A stretch of 64,000 nucleotides of DNA from Gemmatimonas groenlandica (GTDB taxonomy: Bacteria > Gemmatimonadota > Gemmatimonadetes > Gemmatimonadales > Gemmatimonadaceae): contig NZ_CP053085.1 of the NCBI RefSeq assembly GCF_013004105.1, positions 4,898,001 to 4,962,000 of the forward strand. The letters are read 5' to 3'. The position numbers and the translations under genes were made by a program. Under the pieces are notes generated by a model. It searched no databases, had not been told where the DNA came from, and worked only from the letters and a program-made list of their open reading frames with translations. Positions 15,657-57,539 of this stretch are shown here, one piece after another; positions within the stretch are counted from its first letter, which is position 1; each line of letters starts with the position of its first letter.

Positions 15657-17222
15657 ATGCCCCACACGCCTTCCGCCACGTCACGCACACCCGAAGATGT
15701 CCTCCGCGACGTCTTCGGGTTTGACGAGTTCAGACCGGGACAGCGCGAGGTCATCGACGCGGTGCTGGCCGGCAAGGATTGCATTGCGCTGATGCCGACG
15801 GGCGCGGGCAAGTCGCTCACCTACCAGCTCCCGGCACGATTGCTCCAAGGCACCGTGCTGGTGATTTCACCGCTGATCTCGCTCATGAAGGATCAGGTCG
15901 ACGCGGTGGCCGGACTCGGCTTCAAGGTCACCGCGATCAACTCCACGCTGGAGTTCGACGAGCGTCGCGCCCGCATGGACGCGTTTCGCGCCGGCGAGTA
16001 CGAACTGGTGTTCCTCGCCCCCGAAGCACTCGATGGCTACCTCGGTGATTTCGTGCGCGATTGTCCGATCTCGCTTCTGGTGGTCGACGAAGCCCATTGC
16101 ATCAGCCAATGGGGACACGACTTCCGCCCGTCGTACCGTCGCCTGCAGGGACTCAAGGAGCAACTCGACGTCCCGGTCCTCGCGCTCACCGCGACCGCAA
16201 CACGACGCGTAGCGCTCGACATTCTGCGACAGCTCGGCATGCGAAAGCCGGCTGGTTTCAAGGGCTCATTCTTCCGCCCGAACTTGCAGATCGCGACGCG
16301 CAAGAAAGGGCAGGGGGGCAACACCCGCGCCGAGATTCTCGCGCTCATTCGCGCGCACGACGGCGAGAGCGGCATCGTGTATTGTCAGAGCCGCAAAGGG
16401 GTGGATCAGACGGCCGATTTCCTCGCCGCACAGGGCGTTCGCGCGCGGCCGTATCACGCGGGTCTCGAGCCCGACGAGCGCGCCCGCAATCAGGAAGCCT
16501 TCCAGCGCGATGACATCGACGTGATCGTCGCGACGGTGGCATTCGGCATGGGCATCGACAAGTCCAATGTGCGATTCGTGATTCATCGCGATATGCCGAA
16601 GGACATCGAATCGTGGTACCAGGAGATCGGCCGTGCCGGTCGCGATGGATTGCCCAGCGATTGTGTGATGTTCTACTCCTGGGCCGACGTGAAGCTGCAC
16701 GAGCGCTTTCTGGACAATCTCGATGACGACGGTGTTCGTGAACGGACGCGCCTCGCGACCGTCGCGCTGTTCGATCTCGTGGAGCGCTCGCGGTGCCGCC
16801 ATCAGGCGCTGGTCGCGCATTTCGACGAAGTGATCGCATCCTGCGGATCGTCGTGCGATGTCTGTACGGGACATCGCGCCGACGAGCGCATCGCGGAGCT
16901 GGTGGAGTCGCAGGTGGGCACGGCGCGTGGTCGTCGGGCGGCGGTGCCAGCCGGTACGGGCGGGCGCACATCGCGTGGTCCCGACGCGGCCATGCTCGAC
17001 GACGATGAACGCGAGCTGTTCGAGCGGCTACGCGCGGTACGGCGTGAACTCGCCGATGAAGCGGGCGTGCCGGCGTACATCGTCTTCGGCGACAAGGTAT
17101 TGCTCGAGATGGTCGCCCGACGGCCGGCCAGCCCGCGCGAATTGCTGCAAGTGCCGGGAGTCGGCGAAGCAAAACTCGAGCGGTACGGCTCGGCGTTTCT
17201 GGATGTGTTGATCGGACGCTGA
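15657..17222 (+). CDS. recQ: RecQ family ATP-dependent DNA helicase
   Basis: A 3'-5' DNA helicase for recombination and fork repair. The 521 residues contain Walker A MPTGAGKS (46-53), DEAH at 144-147, the aromatic-rich loop and arginine finger region [10 protein letters not shown], four Cys of the zinc module (RCRHQ then SCGSSCDVC) and a C-terminal HRDC domain ending [11 protein letters not shown]. Only about 45 residues separate the zinc module from HRDC, too few for the winged-helix part of a full RQC domain, so it is shorter than the 610-residue E. coli enzyme. A copy of part of its 3' coding region reappears at 17861-17898. Confidence 0.92.
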
Positions 17223-17332
17223 TTTCCACGTACTCGCACCGCTGAGCTGGCTCAAAAGCTGCGGTGTAGAGTAGTAGTCACCCGCCGCACCGTATCGGCG
17301 CGGGATGATATTCTCTTCAGGGAGGGCTTCGT

Positions 17333-17743
17333 ATGCGTCATGCATTCATTCGCGCTATCGCGCTGTCGACCTTTGCGCTGACCGTCGGCGGCGCGTCCGC
17401 TCACGCGCAGGGCGCGAGCCACGGGAAGGCAAAGAAGTCGGGCAACACTTCGGGACAAAACATTCCGCCTGGGCTCGCAAAGAAGCCCGGTGGCATGCCA
17501 CCCGGTCAGTACAAGAAGCGCTACGGCACGCGCGAGGGCGCGACGGTGCTGGGCGATATCTTCGGCCGGAACGGCTATCCCGTGCGTCGCATCACACCGT
17601 ATGGTGAATCACAATACGTGTACTACCGAATGCCCGACGGCTCGGAGCGTCGGGCCATCGTGAGCCCCGGCACTGACCAGTTGCGATTCAGCAATGTGCC
17701 GGCGACGCTACTGCAGCAGGTGATCGCGCAGCTGTATCGGTAG
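17333..17743 (+). CDS. secreted basic protein with PPGLAKK/PPGQYKK repeats
   Basis: A 136-residue exported protein. The signal peptide ends near residue 26 (ASAHAQ); a basic linker carries IPPGLAKKPGG and MPPGQYKKRYG, a repeated pattern reminiscent of RcnB/CigR-like periplasmic proteins, and the rest is a small beta-rich domain (YVYYRMPDGSERRAIV). Function unknown. GGAGGG at 17321-17326 gives a good ribosome site. Its TAG stop coincides with the first bases of the tetR-like repeat described at 17740, so its 3' end may have been redefined by that insertion. Confidence 0.75.
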   Translation: MRHAFIRAIALSTFALTVGGASAHAQGASHGKAKKSGNTSGQNIPPGLAKKPGGMPPGQYKKRYGTREGATVLGDIFGRNGYPVRRITPYGESQYVYYRMPDGSERRAIVSPGTDQLRFSNVPATLLQQVIAQLYR

Positions 17744-17898
17744 CGTTCAATGCCGTCGAGCACGCGCGCGAGTCCGAACTCGAACGACTCGTCCATCGTG
17801 CGCGACGGCCTGCCCGGCGGCGTCGTGAGCAGCGCCGCGAAGTGCGGGAATCGCGGTGCTGCTGGAGATGGTCGCCCGACGGCCGGACAGCCCGCGCG
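17740..17898. pseudogene. mosaic of tetR 3' end and recQ fragment
   Basis: Bases 17740-17856 are a near-identical copy of 30968-31084, the 3' coding end of the tetR gene; read on the minus strand they encode FALLTTPPGRPSRTMDESF-like sequence. Directly beyond, 17861-17898 copies recQ around 17102-17139 on the plus strand ([12 protein letters not shown]) with two or three mismatches. Neither part can make its protein: the tetR piece lacks the DNA-binding domain and the recQ piece is about 13 codons. It is a scar joining two unrelated chromosomal fragments. Confidence 0.8.
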
Positions 17899-18032
17899 GC
17901 CAAATGAGATGCAGCCGCTTCGTTCAAGACGGTCGATGTGATGGTGATCAAGATTGACCTTCACGCTGCACGGGTGCATGCCCGAGCGCGCAGCACAGGT
18001 CAGATCCCAACCGTCAACAGTCGGAGTGCATC

Positions 18033-18749
18033 ATGTTGAAATGGTCAGTTCGCCGAGCGGCATCGCTCGCGATGATAGTGGCCGCACCGGCGGCAGCGCA
18101 AAGCACTGGCGTTGCATCAGAACTCGCACGGCGAAGCGCCGCGAGTCTCTCGGTCATCCAAGGCCGACCGCAGGGTGGCTTCGCACGCCATGTGGCTCTT
18201 GGCTATGGAATCGACGGCGCGTATCTGCTGCGTCTCGATCGCGCCGGCATCGTCAGTGTTCGTGCGAGCGTGGGCGCGCTGAGCTACGGAAACGAGTCGC
18301 GCGAGAGCGCGCTGAGCGAGTCGGTTGGCGGTCGGGTGCAGGTCAAGGTCACGACCAGCAACTACATCGTGCCGATGAGCATCGGGCCGCAGGTGAGCTG
18401 GCCGCGAGGTCCGGTTCGCCCATACGCGCACGTCGGCGTGGGCGGGCAGCTCCTCTTCTCGGAGAGTCGCGCTCAAGGCACCACGTCCGGAACTGTGCTG
18501 GCCAGTACCACGAATCACTCCGCGTCGGCCGCTGCGTGGTCGCTTGGTGGTGGCGCGTACATGCCGCTCGTTGCCGGCCGAACGCGGGTGCAGCTCGATC
18601 TGGGTGTGCAGTATGTCGGTGGCCGATCCGCCCGCTATCTCACCAAAGGCAGCATCGTCGACTTGCCTGGCGCGCAGATCGCCGTGACGCCGCGCGAGAG
18701 CCGCACACACATGGCCATCATCCGCCTCGGCGCGCGCGTGCAGCCATGA
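18033..18749 (+). CDS. outer-membrane beta-barrel protein
   Basis: A 238-residue exported protein with a signal peptide to about residue 23 (APAAAQ) and alternating aromatic/aliphatic beta strands through to a final MAIIRLGARVQP, as in OmpA/opacity-type small barrels. The glycine-rich GGGAYMPLVAGRTRVQLDLGVQYVG segment is a typical barrel hairpin. It overlaps the downstream lipoprotein hydrolase by ATGA. The role is unknown; export and fold are predictions from the sequence pattern. Confidence 0.72.
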   Translation: MLKWSVRRAASLAMIVAAPAAAQSTGVASELARRSAASLSVIQGRPQGGFARHVALGYGIDGAYLLRLDRAGIVSVRASVGALSYGNESRESALSESVGGRVQVKVTTSNYIVPMSIGPQVSWPRGPVRPYAHVGVGGQLLFSESRAQGTTSGTVLASTTNHSASAAAWSLGGGAYMPLVAGRTRVQLDLGVQYVGGRSARYLTKGSIVDLPGAQIAVTPRESRTHMAIIRLGARVQP

Positions 18750-30946: not shown

Positions 30947-31747
30947 TTAGCGCCTGCCCCCGTTGACGTAGCGTTCAATGCCGTCAAGCACGCGCGCGAG
31001 TCCGAACTCGAACGACTCGTCCATCGTGCGCGACGGCCGGCTCGGCGGCGTCGTAAGCAGCGCCGCGAAGCGCGGGAATCGCGGATCGCCGATGGCGCGC
31101 CCGAGATCGGCGCCAACCGCAGCGGCCCACTCTGCATCCGAGGTGCCGCGCGCCCGCGCCCGCGCGAGTGAGATTGCGGTGTCCGACGCGCCGCGCGTGT
31201 AGCCGTCGAGCACACTGAGCATCTCGCCTATGTCGGCCGAATCCAGGCCGGTGGTCGAGAGGGCGTCGATCACCGCCTCCGACCAGCTCAGCCAGTTCGG
31301 TCCGTGCGGTGCCGCCACGAACGGCAATTCGGCCAGCCATGGGCGTGCACAGAGCATCGCGCGTTTCGCCCGCGCCCACCGCGCCAGCTCGCTCCGCCAA
31401 TCATCGCGTGGCTCCGAGGGGCGCGGCGGCAGGCCCAGTGCCGCATCCACGATCGCATCGAGGAGTGCTTCCTTGCTGGGGAAGTACCGATACACCGCCA
31501 TCGTCGTGTAGCCGATCCGCGTCGAGACCGCACTCATGGTCACGGCGCCGAGGCCGTCCTCGTCGGCGAGCTGCATGGCCGCCCGTACGACATCGTCCGG
31601 GGTCAGCGCCGCCTTCGGGCCACGCGTGGATTGGACCCGGTCCTCCCACAACAGCTGACTGCGCCGCCGCAGCTCCGGGTCGACCGTCGCCGCCGCCTGC
31701 ATGAGGTCGTCTCGAGTCAGTGCCTCCGGCGTCTTTCGCTTCGTCAT
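30947..31747 (-). CDS. TetR family repressor
   Basis: A 266-residue TetR regulator with a helix-turn-helix (AVTMSAVSTRIGYTTMAVYRYFPSKEALL) at about 65-95 and a C-terminal ligand domain of the tetracycline-repressor type (PF02909-like). I start at the ATG 31747, which has a GAGGTG ahead; an in-frame upstream start would run through the operator region. It is divergent from an outer-membrane barrel gene, with two matched GTGTA-N5-TACAC sites between. Its last 39 codons are duplicated at 17740-17856. Confidence 0.88.
   Translation of the reverse strand: MTKRKTPEALTRDDLMQAAATVDPELRRRSQLLWEDRVQSTRGPKAALTPDDVVRAAMQLADEDGLGAVTMSAVSTRIGYTTMAVYRYFPSKEALLDAIVDAALGLPPRPSEPRDDWRSELARWARAKRAMLCARPWLAELPFVAAPHGPNWLSWSEAVIDALSTTGLDSADIGEMLSVLDGYTRGASDTAISLARARARGTSDAEWAAAVGADLGRAIGDPRFPRFAALLTTPPSRPSRTMDESFEFGLARVLDGIERYVNGGRR
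30968..31084. repeat. tetR 3' segment duplicated at 17740-17856
   Basis: This 117-base segment of the tetR coding end is the intact parent of the copy at 17740-17856; only about six bases differ. The encoded protein segment is FPRFAALLTTPPSRPSRTM and onward to the end of the gene. Confidence 0.8.
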
Positions 31748-31768
31748 CGCACCTCGCCAAAGAAACTG

Positions 31769-31796
31769 TTGACAATCCTGAAACTGTGTATATGAT
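31769..31796 (+). promoter_or_regulatory. sigma-70 promoter of the barrel gene
   Basis: TTGACA at 31769-31774 and TATGAT at 31791-31796 with a 16-base spacer, the best promoter in the window. It points toward the barrel gene at 31893 and its -10 lies inside the first TetR-type operator. Confidence 0.8.
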
Positions 31797-31822
31797 ACAC
31801 CCGTACAGTGTATGTAGTACAC
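31786..31822. promoter_or_regulatory. two matched TetR-type operators
   Basis: Two palindromes with identical arms, GTGTA-N5-TACAC, at 31786-31800 (centre TATGA) and 31808-31822 (centre TGTAG). Their centres are 22 bases apart, two helical turns. The first covers the -10 of the barrel promoter and the second the start of its transcript, so binding of the adjacent TetR protein should block it. Confidence 0.75.
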
Positions 31823-31892
31823 TAATACAGGCGGCGCACGAACGGAAGCGCTCTCGCGCCGCTTCACCATCTCTCTCTACAAGGATATCCGC

Positions 31893-35103: not shown

Positions 35104-35157
35104 TTCAACGACTCTGACCCCTTGAACGCTCCGGTTCAAGGGGTCAGAGTCGTTGAA
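35104..35157. repeat. 24-base perfect inverted repeat, REP-like
   Basis: Two exactly complementary 24-base arms (35104-35127 and 35134-35157) flank a 6-base loop between the convergent transpeptidase and phosphoesterase genes. The right arm, including GGGGTCAGAGTCGTTGAA, recurs exactly at 57494-57517. A dispersed palindrome of this kind is REP-like; it may also end transcription from both sides. Confidence 0.75.
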
Positions 35158-45200: not shown

Positions 45201-45712
45201 GCCTCGCCGACTCGACCGCGGCGACGGTCGTTGCGCAGGACTCTGGCACAGGCGGGCCGGCGGCCCCTCGCCGCACCGCCTTGAAGCCGATGGCGACGAC
45301 GTCGACGGACACGGGCGCGGCTGCCGCCGGCCCTCCGCCGCCAAAGCGATTCGACGATCGCGCGATGATACGGGCGGCCTATCCGCTGCTGTACGGACGG
45401 GAGGCGGCCGGGGAGGAGATAGAGCTCGGACTCGCGTTCCTCGCGAATCAACGCGCGTCGTTGCTGGTGAGCGAGACCGCGAAGGCCGCGGCCGAGGCGA
45501 AGAAAGCCGAGACGAAGAAGGCCGACGCCACGAAGGCAGACACCACGAAGGCCGACACCACGAAGGCCGACACCACGAAGGCCGACACCACGAAGGCCGC
45601 GGCCGAGGCAAAGAAAGACCAAGACCTGCTCGCGCGCAGAGTGTCCATGAAGGCGTGGACGCAGTACGCACGGGCGCTGTTCAGCGCGGCAGAATTCCGA
45701 TTCATCGATTGA
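42212..45712 (+). CDS. planctomycete-type cytochrome DUF1549/DUF1553 protein
   Basis: A 1166-residue exported protein of the PSD1 type. Order: signal peptide (ATPLAAQS), two c-type cytochrome domains with CVECH near residue 45 and CFACH near 166, a DUF1549 domain from about 285 (DIDRFVLATLEQRGLTP, WGRHWLDVTRYGE), and DUF1553 in the last third (RVIVNRVWGWHMGAGIV, SSVYQMAS). Near the end is a low-complexity Lys/Ala/Thr stretch made by a 15-base tandem repeat. It is 22 bases from a DUF1501 gene, its usual partner. Proteins of this kind are linked to polysaccharide or sulfated-glycan use, but the reaction is unknown. Confidence 0.9.
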   Translation: MKPLVTLFASFATAVAASATPLAAQSTDDFFESRVRPVLARQCVECHSEARTRGRLKLTTRAELLTGGKSGPAIVPGDPDASLLIKAVRHQIAKMEMPRDAPPLSPRDIEGLVEWVKMGAPWPESAPRIVLAASVSAEEGGMTPGARIFVSKVRPVLEQKCFACHTSEERGGLRLDSRERVLKGGKRGPAVIPGNPEQSLIIAALRHEREDLRMPRNAAKLSDAEIQGFVEWVQAGAEWAKTEAPIAMQRRAVTKVEREFWSFSPHPVIKVPTPAKSDWAKTDIDRFVLATLEQRGLTPARAADKRTLIRRATYDLIGLPPTRKEVDAFLADTTVVAFKKVVDRLLASEQYGEKWGRHWLDVTRYGEDDTRGLAQDGSGRERYPMAHVYRDWVVDAFNADMPYDTLVMAHLAADQMPEPRRKDLLPALGFLGQGPWYYDLADPPVARADERHDRVDVTTRGFLGLTVGCARCHDHKYDPIGTHDYYAIAGIFNNANYHEYPIADSARADRFKKDKEFIKKLNDGMGEYMRTESDQLARVLTLQVSKYMMAAWRVTAREQLPKERAALEARLDLETLERWIDFLNDPPKHYPFLTDWQAMIAAPVGTTDEAKAEAKKKAQGLADAFQRLLIDVTAEQKKLEEKNKRIIAKGTPLDEVKSIPMPNGFESFFDQHQLELATMDRSRFNLYLDVFAVDLDNELDTFFPKPALLRFNGWGLERQLSRVSADYLASMREEVKRLQKALPDIPFVMGVQDKPKESLDDIALHIRGSPLSLGERVPRGFPLVLQPGTPVVYQEGSGRLQLAQDIAKHPLAARVIVNRVWGWHMGAGIVRTPSNFGFAGARPTNPELLEYLAARFVANGRSIKGLHRDIMLSSVYQMASDHDAKSAAIDPENQYLWRFNRQRLSAEGIRDALLSVSGQLVDSIGGPSLELDDEKNNRRTLYASVSRFQPNIFLQTFDFPSPSLSAERRFATNVPLQSLYFMNSPFVLRQAQALVRRLADSTAATVVAQDSGTGGPAAPRRTALKPMATTSTDTGAAAAGPPPPKRFDDRAMIRAAYPLLYGREAAGEEIELGLAFLANQRASLLVSETAKAAAEAKKAETKKADATKADTTKADTTKADTTKADTTKAAAEAKKDQDLLARRVSMKAWTQYARALFSAAEFRFID
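45518..45592 (+). repeat. five 15-base tandem repeats in coding sequence
   Basis: Five units of a 15-base repeat (AAGGCCGACACCACG and close variants) encode KADTT repeats in the C-terminal part of the DUF1553 protein. The units stay in frame, so copy-number changes would only alter the length of a Lys-rich linker. Confidence 0.85.
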
Positions 45713-53204: not shown

Positions 53205-53671
53205 GCACACTTTGCGTCCCAGCGCGTCCATGATTTCCGAACGCACTGGCTCGGCGTCCTCGACGGGCAAGCGTGTGCTCAATGCGAGCAGGGCCTCGGC
53301 TGTACCGATCGCTCCGAGCGCCCACGCGACACGCATCGGACGAGCGGCTCCTCGTGTTTGAGCGAAGCAACTAGCAGTGGCACGTCGGCGGCGGAGCCCA
53401 CGTTGCCCAAGACTACCGCGGCGTTCCGTGCGAGTCCGCGGCGCTTGGCCCGCTTCATCGGGGAGCCTTTGAATGCCGATGTGTATTCGTCCGGGCAGAG
53501 CGCGAGTAGCCTGCGCGCTAATTGCACCGCATCGACGCCGTCGAGAAAGCGCCTCGCGTCAAATGCCGACTCGGACAGCGGCTTAGCGAATGTATGGTTC
53601 CACGGACACACCTCCTGGGAGGTCTGTCGGTATACCCATTTTGAGATTCCGCTGTCCACGGGCTCTCGCAC
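53205..53671 (-). pseudogene. QueG C-terminal fragment 1 (frameshifted)
   Basis: Remnant of epoxyqueuosine reductase (QueG). It begins at VYRQTSQEVCPWN, the last part of the iron-sulfur motif, and runs through MKRAKRRGLARNAAVVLGNVGSAADVP, the HEAT-like C-terminus. A frameshift after EEPLVR moves the rest (VAWALGAIGTAEALLAL, ending GRKVC) into another frame. The CxxxC pair upstream of QEVCPWN is missing and replaced by RQTS. The whole catalytic N-terminus is absent. It is the first of four such fragments on the same strand. Confidence 0.82.
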
Positions 53672-53881
53672 GCTCCATGCGAGCCAGCGGAACCTCTGAC
53701 CCGCGGGGAGCGGGCCGATCCACCCTGGTGCTGGCCGAGGAGATGGGGCGCAGCTGTGGCGAATGCACCCGACACCCTCCCGCGCTGCTCGAAGGCGGGC
53801 AGGCAGATGGCCTGCCGGGCCGATTTGCCATTTAATCTTTAACGGTGTAGTTTTTCTTCATATCCACCAAGAAGAGGCTCC

Positions 53882-54154
53882 GTGGCGGTCAATATCAAGA
53901 ACAAACGCGTGGAGCGGCTCCTCGACGAGGTGGCGGCGCTCACCGGTGAGACAAAGACCGAAGCCATCCGGCGCGCCCTCGAAGAGCGTCGAGATCGTCT
54001 CGCACGGAGCAGCGCACAACTCCATCCTGCCGACCGCCTCCGTCGACTGCTGGAACGCGAAATCTGGCCCTCCATTCCGGCCGACGTGCGCGGCACACGG
54101 CTCAGCAAAGCAGAAGAGGAGCAGATCCTCGGCTACGGACCCGACGGCGCGTGA
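53882..54154 (+). CDS. VapB-type antitoxin
   Basis: A 90-residue antitoxin of the VapB/Rv0623 (PSK) type: ribbon-helix-helix-like start (NIKNKRVERLLDEVAALTGETKTEAIRRALEERRDRL) and an acidic toxin-binding tail. GTG start with GAAGAGG at 53871-53877. The stop overlaps the GTG of the PIN toxin, the usual coupling. It lies between QueG fragments 1 and 2. Confidence 0.88.
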   Translation: MAVNIKNKRVERLLDEVAALTGETKTEAIRRALEERRDRLARSSAQLHPADRLRRLLEREIWPSIPADVRGTRLSKAEEEQILGYGPDGA

Positions 54155-54537
54155 TCCTCGACAGCTCAGCGCTGGTAGCCATCGTGCTGCAGGAACAGGC
54201 CGCCGAGCGACTGTTGCAGCGCATGCGCGATGCGTCCTTTCTGGCGATCGGTGCGGCCACGCTCCTCGAAACCGGCATCGTATTGTCCGCCCGCTTGCAC
54301 GATGACGCGCGCGGGCTCTTGGCGCGTGTGCTGCAGGAAAGCGGCATCACCGTCGTTGACGTGACAGAAGCGCACTTCGGCGTGGCGATGGACGCGTGGC
54401 TGCGCTACGGCAAGGGCCGACATCCCGCGGCGCTCAACTTCGGCGATTGTCTGTCGTACGCGATCGCGGTGGTGGCCGGCGCGCCGCTGCTGTGCGTGGG
54501 CGACGACTTTCCACAGACGGACTGCGTGCTCGCGTGA
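54151..54537 (+). CDS. VapC-type PIN-domain toxin
   Basis: A 128-residue PIN-domain ribonuclease. The acidic site is complete by eye: Asp4 in ILDSSALVA, Glu40 in LLETGIVL, Asp99 in NFGDCLSYA and Asp118/Asp119 in VGDDF. It would cleave RNA when free of VapB. It begins with GTG inside the antitoxin stop (GTGA). Both genes look intact, unlike the rest of the region. Confidence 0.9.
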   Translation: MILDSSALVAIVLQEQAAERLLQRMRDASFLAIGAATLLETGIVLSARLHDDARGLLARVLQESGITVVDVTEAHFGVAMDAWLRYGKGRHPAALNFGDCLSYAIAVVAGAPLLCVGDDFPQTDCVLA

Positions 54538-54547
54538 GTGCGACGGC

Positions 54548-55155
54548 GTGACCGACCTCCGCGCGCAACTCCTAGCCACGCTCGGTGACGGCTACACCCT
54601 CGAACGCGAGATCGGTGGTGGCGGCATGTCGCGCGTGTTCCTGGCGCGCGACGAGGCACTGCCGATGCTGCCACGCGCGCCATGCTGTCGATGCACTCCA
54701 CCTACGCGTTGGCGTGGGACGCGCGCGGCGAAATGCTGAGCTATCTCGGCCGTCACGACGAAGCGATTGCCGCGCTGCAGCACAACTTGGACCAGCTGCC
54801 GAAGAAGCTGCCGAATCAGACGGAAGGAATTCTCGCGTTTGTCTTCGCGCGCGCCGGACGCGCGGGCGATGCGCGACGGTCGATGGAGCACCTGCGCGTG
54901 GTGAACGGTGGCGAGCTCCCCGCCATGGGCGCGCTCGCCGCAGCCCTGGAAATGCTGGGCGATCATGCGGGCGCGCTGACGATGATCGAGCGCGCCGTGA
55001 AGCAGCCTGACGCCTGGTTGCAGATGTATAATCATGCCGAGCGATACGACGCGCTGCGCCGTGATCCGCGTGCCAACACGATGATGGCGAGCATCGAGCA
55101 GTGGGCCAACGTGCGCGTGCGGGGGAATGATTCGCTGATTCGTACGGTGCACAGC
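54548..55155 (+). pseudogene. Ser/Thr kinase-TPR gene with middle deleted
   Basis: The first 36 codons are the start of a Gemmatimonadota-type protein kinase (YTLEREIGGGGMSRVFLARDEAL). Near 54665 this joins, out of frame, the C-terminal TPR part (STYALAWDARGEMLSYLGRHDEAIAAL) of the same kind of protein. Nearly the whole kinase domain is lost, so it is dead. The end of the TPR part runs into QueG fragment 2. Confidence 0.78.
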
Positions 55156-55163
55156 ACTGATAC

Positions 55164-55361
55164 TCAGTCCGACGTCGTGCTCATGATTCGCGCGAGTGCC
55201 CACGTTGCATGCTCGCGCACGAGCATGCGTGCGTCACGCGACTCCAGTCCGGTGCGCGGCGCGAAGGCGGGTTCGGTGCGCGGCTGCGCGAACGTCACGT
55301 TCCACGGACACACCTCCTGGGAGGTCTGTCGGTATAACCGTTTTTCGATCCCGCTCCGCAC
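55164..55361 (-). pseudogene. QueG C-terminal fragment 2 (internal deletion)
   Basis: Begins at LYRQTSQEVCPWNVTFAQP, continues to FAPRTGLESRDARM and then jumps to LVREHATWALARI; about 170 bases present in fragment 3, including the KRAKRRGLARNAAVVLGN block, are missing. Outside the deletion it is about 97% identical to fragment 3 over the shared 100 bases by eye. Same strand as the others. Confidence 0.82.
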
Positions 55362-55449
55362 GAGCGCCCGGAGCGTCGCCCAGGAAGGTAAAGAGGGCTC
55401 CTGCCACCGTGGCCGCTCAACTCGTTGAGACCGGGTCGAGCGCGCGCGC

Positions 55450-56909
55450 TCAGGGAGCCGGGTTGGGCGCGCGCCGTGCCTGTATCAGGAGCCCGTCGAG
55501 CGCCGTGCGATCCAGCCAATGACCGTCCCGCACCACGCCGCGAATGCGCGTCGTATGACGAATGTCGACCAGTGGGTTGGCGTCGAGCAGCACGAGGTCC
55601 GCCAGCCTCCCGACCGCGACCGTGCCCAAGGAGTCGGTGGCGCTCAGGAAGCGCGCGGGGTTCACTGTGGCCGCTTGCAGCGCCTGCAGCGGCGTGAGGC
55701 CAGCCTGCACGAGCAGCACCAGCTCCTCGTGTAGGCTGCTGCCGGCGTAGACGAACGGCTCGTCGCTCGCATCGCTGCCAGCGAGCACACCCACGCCGGC
55801 GGCCACCATGCGCTGCAGCATTTGCCGCTCGTACATCCAGCGTGCGCGCCACGCCGCCCGACCCTGCACGCCGTACTCGGCCAGCAGTTCGGCGCGGGTG
55901 GTGTCCCAACCGGCCAGCACGCCGGCGGCCACCGATGCCCGCTCCGCGTCGCTCCCCCAGGTGGAGTCGGGGAACGAGTAACTACGGTTAATGACGAGCG
56001 TGGGGGTCTGCCACGTGCCGGCACGCCGGAGCTGCAGTGCCAGCGTGTCGGCACAGGCGGCGTCGTACCCGGCGAGCCAGCGCGACCACTGCCGCTCGCG
56101 CAGCGGGCGCCGCTCGGCGCGTCGGTCGCGTCGCGGCGGTCCAGCGCGGCGAGCGAGTCCCGCAACTCGCCGGCGCCGGGTACGCACCACTCGAACAGGT
56201 TCCACAGGTGCTCGAAGCTACGCATGCCCGCCTTCGCCGCCTCCGCGGGCGGGACACGGTCGGGGACCTCGCCGGCGATACGCACGCCGCGACGCTGTGC
56301 CTCGTCCGCGAGCGCGAGGAAGCTCTCCCGCGACAAGCCGCTGTAGACCTTGAGATAGTCGAAGTCGAGCGAGTCCATTCTCGCAACCACCGCGCGCGCC
56401 TGTGATGGAGTAGCGATCACGAGCGCATGTGCGTAGAGGGGCGGGTCTCCATCGAGCATCGGGCTCGACCAGATCACGCGGGGCGACGCGCGCGGGTTCT
56501 CACGCGCGACCCGGCGCCAGTGCAGTAGGCTGTCGAGGTAGCTGCCCGTCTCGCGCACACCAGTGACGCCGTGCGCCAAGAAGAGCGGCCAGAAGCGGGG
56601 CGCGCGTCCCCCACGCGCGGCGTGGACGTGCATGTCCCAGAGGCCGGGGATCACGTACTTCCCGGTGCCATCGACAACGGTCGCGCCAACGGGAAGCGTG
56701 GGTGCGCCGGAGTCCACGGACACGATCCGCCTGCCGCGTACTACCACCGTGCGGTCGCGGAGCAGCGCACCACGCTCCACGTCGACGACCGTGACGCCCC
56801 GGATGACGAGGGCGGTGTCCCCAAAGGGTGGGTGACGGCTCGTGTCAGCCGTCGGTGAACACGCGCTCGCGAGGATCAACGCGGCGACCAGCGGCAGCGC
56901 AGCGCGCAC
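55450..56909 (-). pseudogene. amidohydrolase lipoprotein with frameshift
   Basis: An amidohydrolase of the imidazolonepropionase/prolidase-like type: lipobox SACS, metal motif GLWDMHVHA, then Lys in DYLKVYSGL, His in FEHLWNLF and late GSDASDEPFVYAG. The frame breaks once near 56100-56130: DRRDATDAP in one frame continues as RRPLRERQWSRWLAGYDAA in another. The C-terminal part (LGTVAVGRLADLVLLDANPL) is normal. GTG 56909 has a GGAGG ahead. The single shift could be a sequencing error or recent decay. It is flanked by QueG fragments 2 and 3. Confidence 0.78.
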
Positions 56910-57066
56910 CTGACCTCCGAGAAGGGGTGAATGCCGAAGGAGGCGAGCCAAGGGCAAACCTACGAGTGCGATATGGCGGGAACAAGATGGCCTGATCGTC
57001 AGCCGATGGCGCGGCGCGAAGTCGCTTCCATCTCCAGTGCGACCCACACGCTCTCGGCCGATCCCT

Positions 57067-57450
57067 TCATGTCCAGCGAGCAGCCAGATCCGCCGGACGT
57101 CGCTTGATCCGTGCGAGCGCCCACGCCGCATGCTCGCGCACGAGCGACTCGTCGTGCGCGAGCGCTGCTTCGAGCAGCGGCACGTCGTCGCTCGTGCCGA
57201 CGTTGCCCAGCACCACCGCCGCGTTGCGCGCGAGCCCGCGCCGCTTCGCGCGTTTCATCGCGCTGCCCTTGAAGCGCGCACTGAACTCGGCTTGCGACAT
57301 CGGGAGCAACTCACGCGCGACCATGCGTGCGTCACGCGACTCCAGTCCGGCGCGCGGCGCGAAGGCGGGTTCGGTGCGCGGCTGCGCGAACGTCACGTTC
57401 CAAGGGCAGACCTCCTGGGAGATGTGTCGGCAAAACCGTTTACTGGTAGA
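57067..57450 (-). pseudogene. QueG C-terminal fragment 3
   Basis: The longest unbroken QueG piece: SQEVCPWNVTFAQP, then FKGSAMKRAKRRGLARNAAVVLGN and two HEAT-like repeats to REHAAWALARIKRRPADL. The N-terminal catalytic part is lacking and the residues before QEVCPWN (RFCRHIS) again lack the CxxxC pair. It has no proper start. Confidence 0.82.
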
Positions 57451-57493: not shown

Positions 57494-57517
57494 GTTCAAG
57501 GGGTCAGAGTCGTTGAA
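57494..57517. repeat. half copy of the REP-like palindrome
   Basis: Exact 24-base copy of the right arm of the inverted repeat at 35104-35157, without the matching left arm. It sits between QueG fragment 3 and the BrnTA module. Confidence 0.75.
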
Positions 57518-57539
57518 ATTGCACCGCAAGGGCGAATCG

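Follow-up and report, generated by a model that had tools for sequence, protein, structure and literature searches.

A 159-base intergenic scar in Gemmatimonas groenlandica, apparently stitched from copies of two nearby genes

Introduction

Multi-join templated insertions have been described mainly in amplification assays with E. coli and in human disease. The FoSTeS/MMBIR features described in people and in E. coli are 2–5 bp of microhomology at the junctions, complex joins, and the insertion of nearby sequence (PMC2621351; PMC3161906), and the replication fork in E. coli is put at ~1.5 kb (PMC3161906). A different class of insertion is the filler DNA of Ku/LigD end joining, made of short ectopic fragments that lie at a junction with little or no homology. 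In naturally transformed Acinetobacter baylyi, double illegitimate recombination reportedly gives single patches from any source. The literature that we searched on short-patch illegitimate recombination and templated insertions in bacteria contained nothing directly on point.

The window that we analyzed is a stretch of 64,000 nucleotides from Gemmatimonas groenlandica (contig NZ_CP053085.1, positions 4,898,001 to 4,962,000). Within it, a segment of 159 bases between two genes is an old scar stitched from copied scraps of two nearby genes, a recQ helicase gene and the gene of a TetR-family regulator (tetR), and it clearly testifies to an accident of copying or repair. In common with the MMBIR/FoSTeS cases (lac amplification in E. 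coli and non-recurrent copy-number changes in humans), the scar has serial short nearby copies, a 2-base microhomology, and several joins per event. It differs from them in that its pieces are just 44 and 117 bases long and in direct orientation only, no large duplication or deletion remains, and its outer joins are not readable. Ku/LigD filler resembles the scar in its short ectopic fragments, and this genome encodes Ku and LigD; in contrast, both scar fragments come from the same 14-kb neighbourhood in the same orientation, and any tie to Ku would come from gene content. The short-patch insertions of A. baylyi share short ectopic DNA placed by microhomology but are single patches, whereas the scar joins two sources. 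The scar is a new example of a known rearrangement class, the complex templated insertion, and one gene shows a small, measurable effect of it.

Results

Layout of the scar and its sources

The genome of G. groenlandica is one contig of 5,179,092 bases, and the assembly of strain TET16 is hybrid and gap-free (PMC7844134). Positions are those of the window, and the gene upstream of the scar is called gene 17333 after its first base. The features are as follows.

15657..17222, plus strand: recQ helicase, source of the second piece (Pfam DEAD, Helicase_C, RecQ_Zn_bind, and HRDC)
17333..17743, plus strand: gene 17333, 136 aa, no Pfam family; its last codon CGG and its stop codon run into the scar
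17738..17739, no strand: left-edge bases CG, which match neither the gene 17333 homologues nor the tetR copy
17740..17856, plus strand: tetR copy; source 30968–31084, the C-terminal coding end of a TetR-family gene
17827..17862, plus strand: strong predicted hairpin; left arm in the tetR copy, right arm straddling the join into recQ
17855..17856, no strand: inner join of the tetR and recQ copies, a 2-base overlap, GG (sequence comparison)
17855..17898, plus strand: recQ copy; source 17096–17139, the recQ HRDC region
30947..31870, minus strand: TetR-family regulator, source of the first piece (Pfam TetR_N and TetR_C_1)

The tetR copy aligned with its source without gaps at 112 of 117 positions and an offset of 13,228, in agreement with the original prediction of a 117-base duplicate of a tetR end about 13 kb away. 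The recQ duplicate that had been reported next to it is real and longer than first given: it covers 44 bases rather than 38, with 40 identities and an offset of 759 (BLAST trims it to 17860–17898, with 37 of 39 identical). The coding senses are opposite, as had been noted, with tetR on the minus strand and recQ on the plus strand. Read on the minus strand, the tetR copy gives TetR sequence without the native start or stop, and its open reading frame there matches Pfam TetR_C_1 (E = 4.5e-7); the recQ copy encodes 14 residues as in RecQ. On the chromosome, each copy points the same way as its source, making both direct repeats, and the site is followed by the tetR end, the recQ piece, and then the site again. 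The join order, from 31084 to 17096, is also that of the tandem-duplication junction of a 13,989-base segment. No more duplicated fragments were found in 17899–18035 by self-comparison of the window or by a search of the organism's own genome. The TetR-family regulator has orthologues in three species of the genus.

Chance, assembly, and rarity within the genome

Chance similarity was ruled out by the self-comparison of the window and by shuffled windows. Both pieces that the original prediction had paired with their sources showed significant identity (E = 6e-48 for the tetR pair and 6e-10 for the recQ pair), and the 39-base core of the recQ copy had 37 identities, compared with a best of 28 in 50 shuffled windows. 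A widespread repeat family was also ruled out, as genome-wide matches consisted of the two source genes and one 24-base match; the mosaic itself occurs once in the whole genome. The 4–9% divergence of the copies from their sources, together with the gap-free hybrid assembly (PMC7844134), makes an assembly artefact unlikely.

In the 400 kb around the window, the tetR and recQ pieces were the sole gene-to-intergenic, single-copy duplications found between separate places, at an identity of at least 85% and a length of at least 30 bases, with crude gene calls; prevalence was measured on such 400-kb stretches. Because the two pieces abut and the 400 kb yielded no others of the kind, two independent events are very unlikely, and one event for both is by far the simplest reading. 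By our own arithmetic, the probability that two random fragments of a 5.18-Mb genome would both fall within 13.3 kb of the site is ~3e-5.

Self-comparison of the window also showed a palindromic element at 35104–35157 and 57494–57518, with a 24–25-base arm recurring exactly 22 kb off. A 43-base direct repeat with 88% identity lies at 45472–45513 and 45583–45625, 111 bases apart, and the three related segments in 53307–57441 (68–92% identity) are apparently a local gene-family expansion. Outside the window, an intergenic tandem repeat of ~159 bases is present in two copies (91%) at G000:C1:4774961–4775305 (locus L111).

The new end of gene 17333

Gene 17333 looks like a gene for a secreted or periplasmic protein. 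Six distinct 3′ ends of its homologues in other Gemmatimonadota all read Leu-Tyr-stop or Leu-His-stop (LY* or LH*), whereas the protein in the window ends Leu-Tyr-Arg-stop (LYR*), one arginine past the homologues' last residue. The stop codon in use, TAG at 17741–17743, falls within the opening bases of the tetR copy and was supplied by the copied DNA, replacing the original one. DNA similarity to the homologue in genome G092 extends to 17736. These results agree with the earlier proposals that the stop of gene 17333 falls on the repeat edge and that the event may have changed the end of the protein: homologues stop one codon earlier, one arginine and a copied stop codon were gained, and the effect is small. 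Gene 17333 thus lost its own stop codon and gained one residue, and is almost unharmed. In most homologues, a strong hairpin directly follows the stop codon; no hairpin with a T run was found right after the stop of gene 17333 in the window. Loss of the native terminator is plausible.

Relatives, the site, and the age of the event

Searches of the 29 other genomes of the genus and of a 295-genome sample of the class did not turn up the mosaic, and the only matches there were to the parent tetR-like and recQ genes; the conservation in distant species that would have spoken against a scar was thus not seen in this sample. With the mosaic unique among the searched genomes and its pieces abutting, the originally proposed scar of template switching or filler-DNA repair stays the best reading. 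Searches of other members of the genus did not find gene 17333. None of the relatives searched has this gene arrangement, and for this reason an empty site was not seen among them. The DNA downstream of recQ (17223–18032; loci L008–L024) differs among most of the relatives compared, and the place behind recQ seems to be a variable site.

When the differences between copies and sources were placed in the source reading frames, six of nine were synonymous, compared with 27% expected if they were random (P = 0.016). The resident recQ differs from the scar at 17099 and 17105. All six of the closest relatives share the scar's base at 17105, and the resident base at 17099 occurs in none of them. Several of the differences therefore arose in functional genes, or the alleles copied were diverged already. 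The synonymous excess and the recQ bases of the relatives together indicate that the event is not recent, or that the source alleles were not the resident ones.

Discussion

Template switching as the probable origin

We consider that a single complex rearrangement, a complex templated insertion made by template switching, put locally copied DNA behind gene 17333, and we give this reading a probability of roughly 0.55. The event would have started at a stalled or broken replication fork, or at a break near 17737. A new 3′ end would then have annealed to the end of tetR, 13.2 kb downstream, and copied 117 bases there before switching over the 2-base GG match 14.0 kb back to recQ, copying ~44 bases, and returning to the site. 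The native stop codon of gene 17333 was replaced in the process, and probably its native 3′ end too. The replicative origin of the copies and the loss of DNA at the site are, like the single event, what we infer from the arrangement.

Template switching is favoured by sources that are both local (0.76 and 13.2 kb) and direct and by the 2-base microhomology where the copies meet. The microhomology of 2–5 bases given for MMBIR/FoSTeS joins (PMC2621351) was found at the GG inner join, the sole readable join, and the two abutting copies match the description of nearby copied sequence with more than one join in one event. Against template switching, the jump to tetR is longer than the ~1.5 kb fork, so that a switch between forks would be needed; the 4–9% divergence has blurred the joins of the scar; and with Ku and LigD present, end joining was available as another route.

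Other origins of the mosaic

In that other route, Ku/LigD end joining would have closed a double-strand break and captured as filler two short fragments released nearby. The necessary genes are close together outside the window at G000:C1:365176–367811, with a Ku gene at C1:365176 (7.3e-44) and, 1.4 kb beyond it, a LigD polymerase domain at C1:367047 (7.2e-79). Ku was found in only four of 30 genus genomes, this one among them, and an inner join with an overlap of just 2 bases is what end joining could leave. Capture, however, requires extra breaks for each fragment, and both sources are local and direct, where the orientation alone has a chance of 1 in 4. A further point against it comes from the genome of the relative G041 (4,716,552 bp), in which an intergenic copy of 256 bases (L156, C1:1307319–1307574; 91%, direct) lies 4.3 kb from its source at 1303006–1303261, which looks like the 3′ end of priA. 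Neither Ku nor LigD was found in G041, so local copies of this type apparently do not require Ku. In 400 kb of each genome, we counted one mosaic here, where Ku is present, one priA copy in G041, and none in G021, with no Ku found in either of the latter, numbers that are far too small for a comparison. We regard end joining as possible but doubtful. A tandem duplication of the 13,989-base segment, joining 31084 to 17096 over GG, followed by two later deletions that left 117 and 44 bases, is unlikely. Such a join would give precisely this order and direction of the pieces, the position of the scar fits, and tandem duplications are common in bacteria. The route nevertheless takes three independent events, and homologous recombination normally reduces a tandem repeat of 14 kb to a single copy, leaving no scar; the self-comparison of the window and the own-genome search revealed no other trace of one.

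The divergence data bear on a further origin, in which the mosaic was made in a sister strain from that strain's own tetR and recQ alleles and arrived through homologous recombination of the surrounding DNA. The synonymous excess is what diverged functional alleles would give, and the scar carries recQ bases that are common to related species and absent from the resident recQ. The same pattern is accounted for if the event is old and the resident genes changed afterwards, and the mosaic would still have to be made by one of the other mechanisms; we consider a sister-strain origin improbable. More improbable again is the reading of the 159 bases not as a scar but as a conserved element with a regulatory or coding function. 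In its favour are the unusually stable hairpin made by the join and the prospect that a transcript reading through from gene 17333 would run antisense to the message of tetR, matching it perfectly over 52 bases (17759–17810). Against it, only the parent genes were matched in the genus genomes and the class sample described above, and the hairpin lacks a following T run.

The hairpin at the join

The hairpin is predicted at −36.8 kcal/mol over 17815–17875 (z = −4.9), and folds at least as stable were reached by 0.9% of chimeras in which the left part was kept and the right part was random. No T run was found behind it. The hairpin could be fortuitous, could be left over from switching guided by a hairpin, or could form a new end of the mRNA. 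Switching primed by a hairpin, with the tetR copy folded back (CGCGGCGCTGCT) against the scar (CGCGGTGCTGCT), was considered and rejected as too weak, arising in ~1% of cases by chance and proposed post hoc. There is a very slight chance that the scar is a working 3′ region of gene 17333, in which the hairpin ends or protects the mRNA and the 117 antisense bases act in trans on the tetR message; if true, a repair accident would have created a regulatory link. The scar is probably without function.

Conclusions

In a little-studied phylum, the scar offers a clean natural example of a templated insertion with several joins, in which the sources, their order, and the effect on the end of a gene are all readable. 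It holds recQ bases that were apparently lost from the resident recQ, and scars like it can serve to date events and to document old alleles. Since Ku and LigD occur in only some species of the genus, the genus can be used to ask whether end joining makes scars of this kind.
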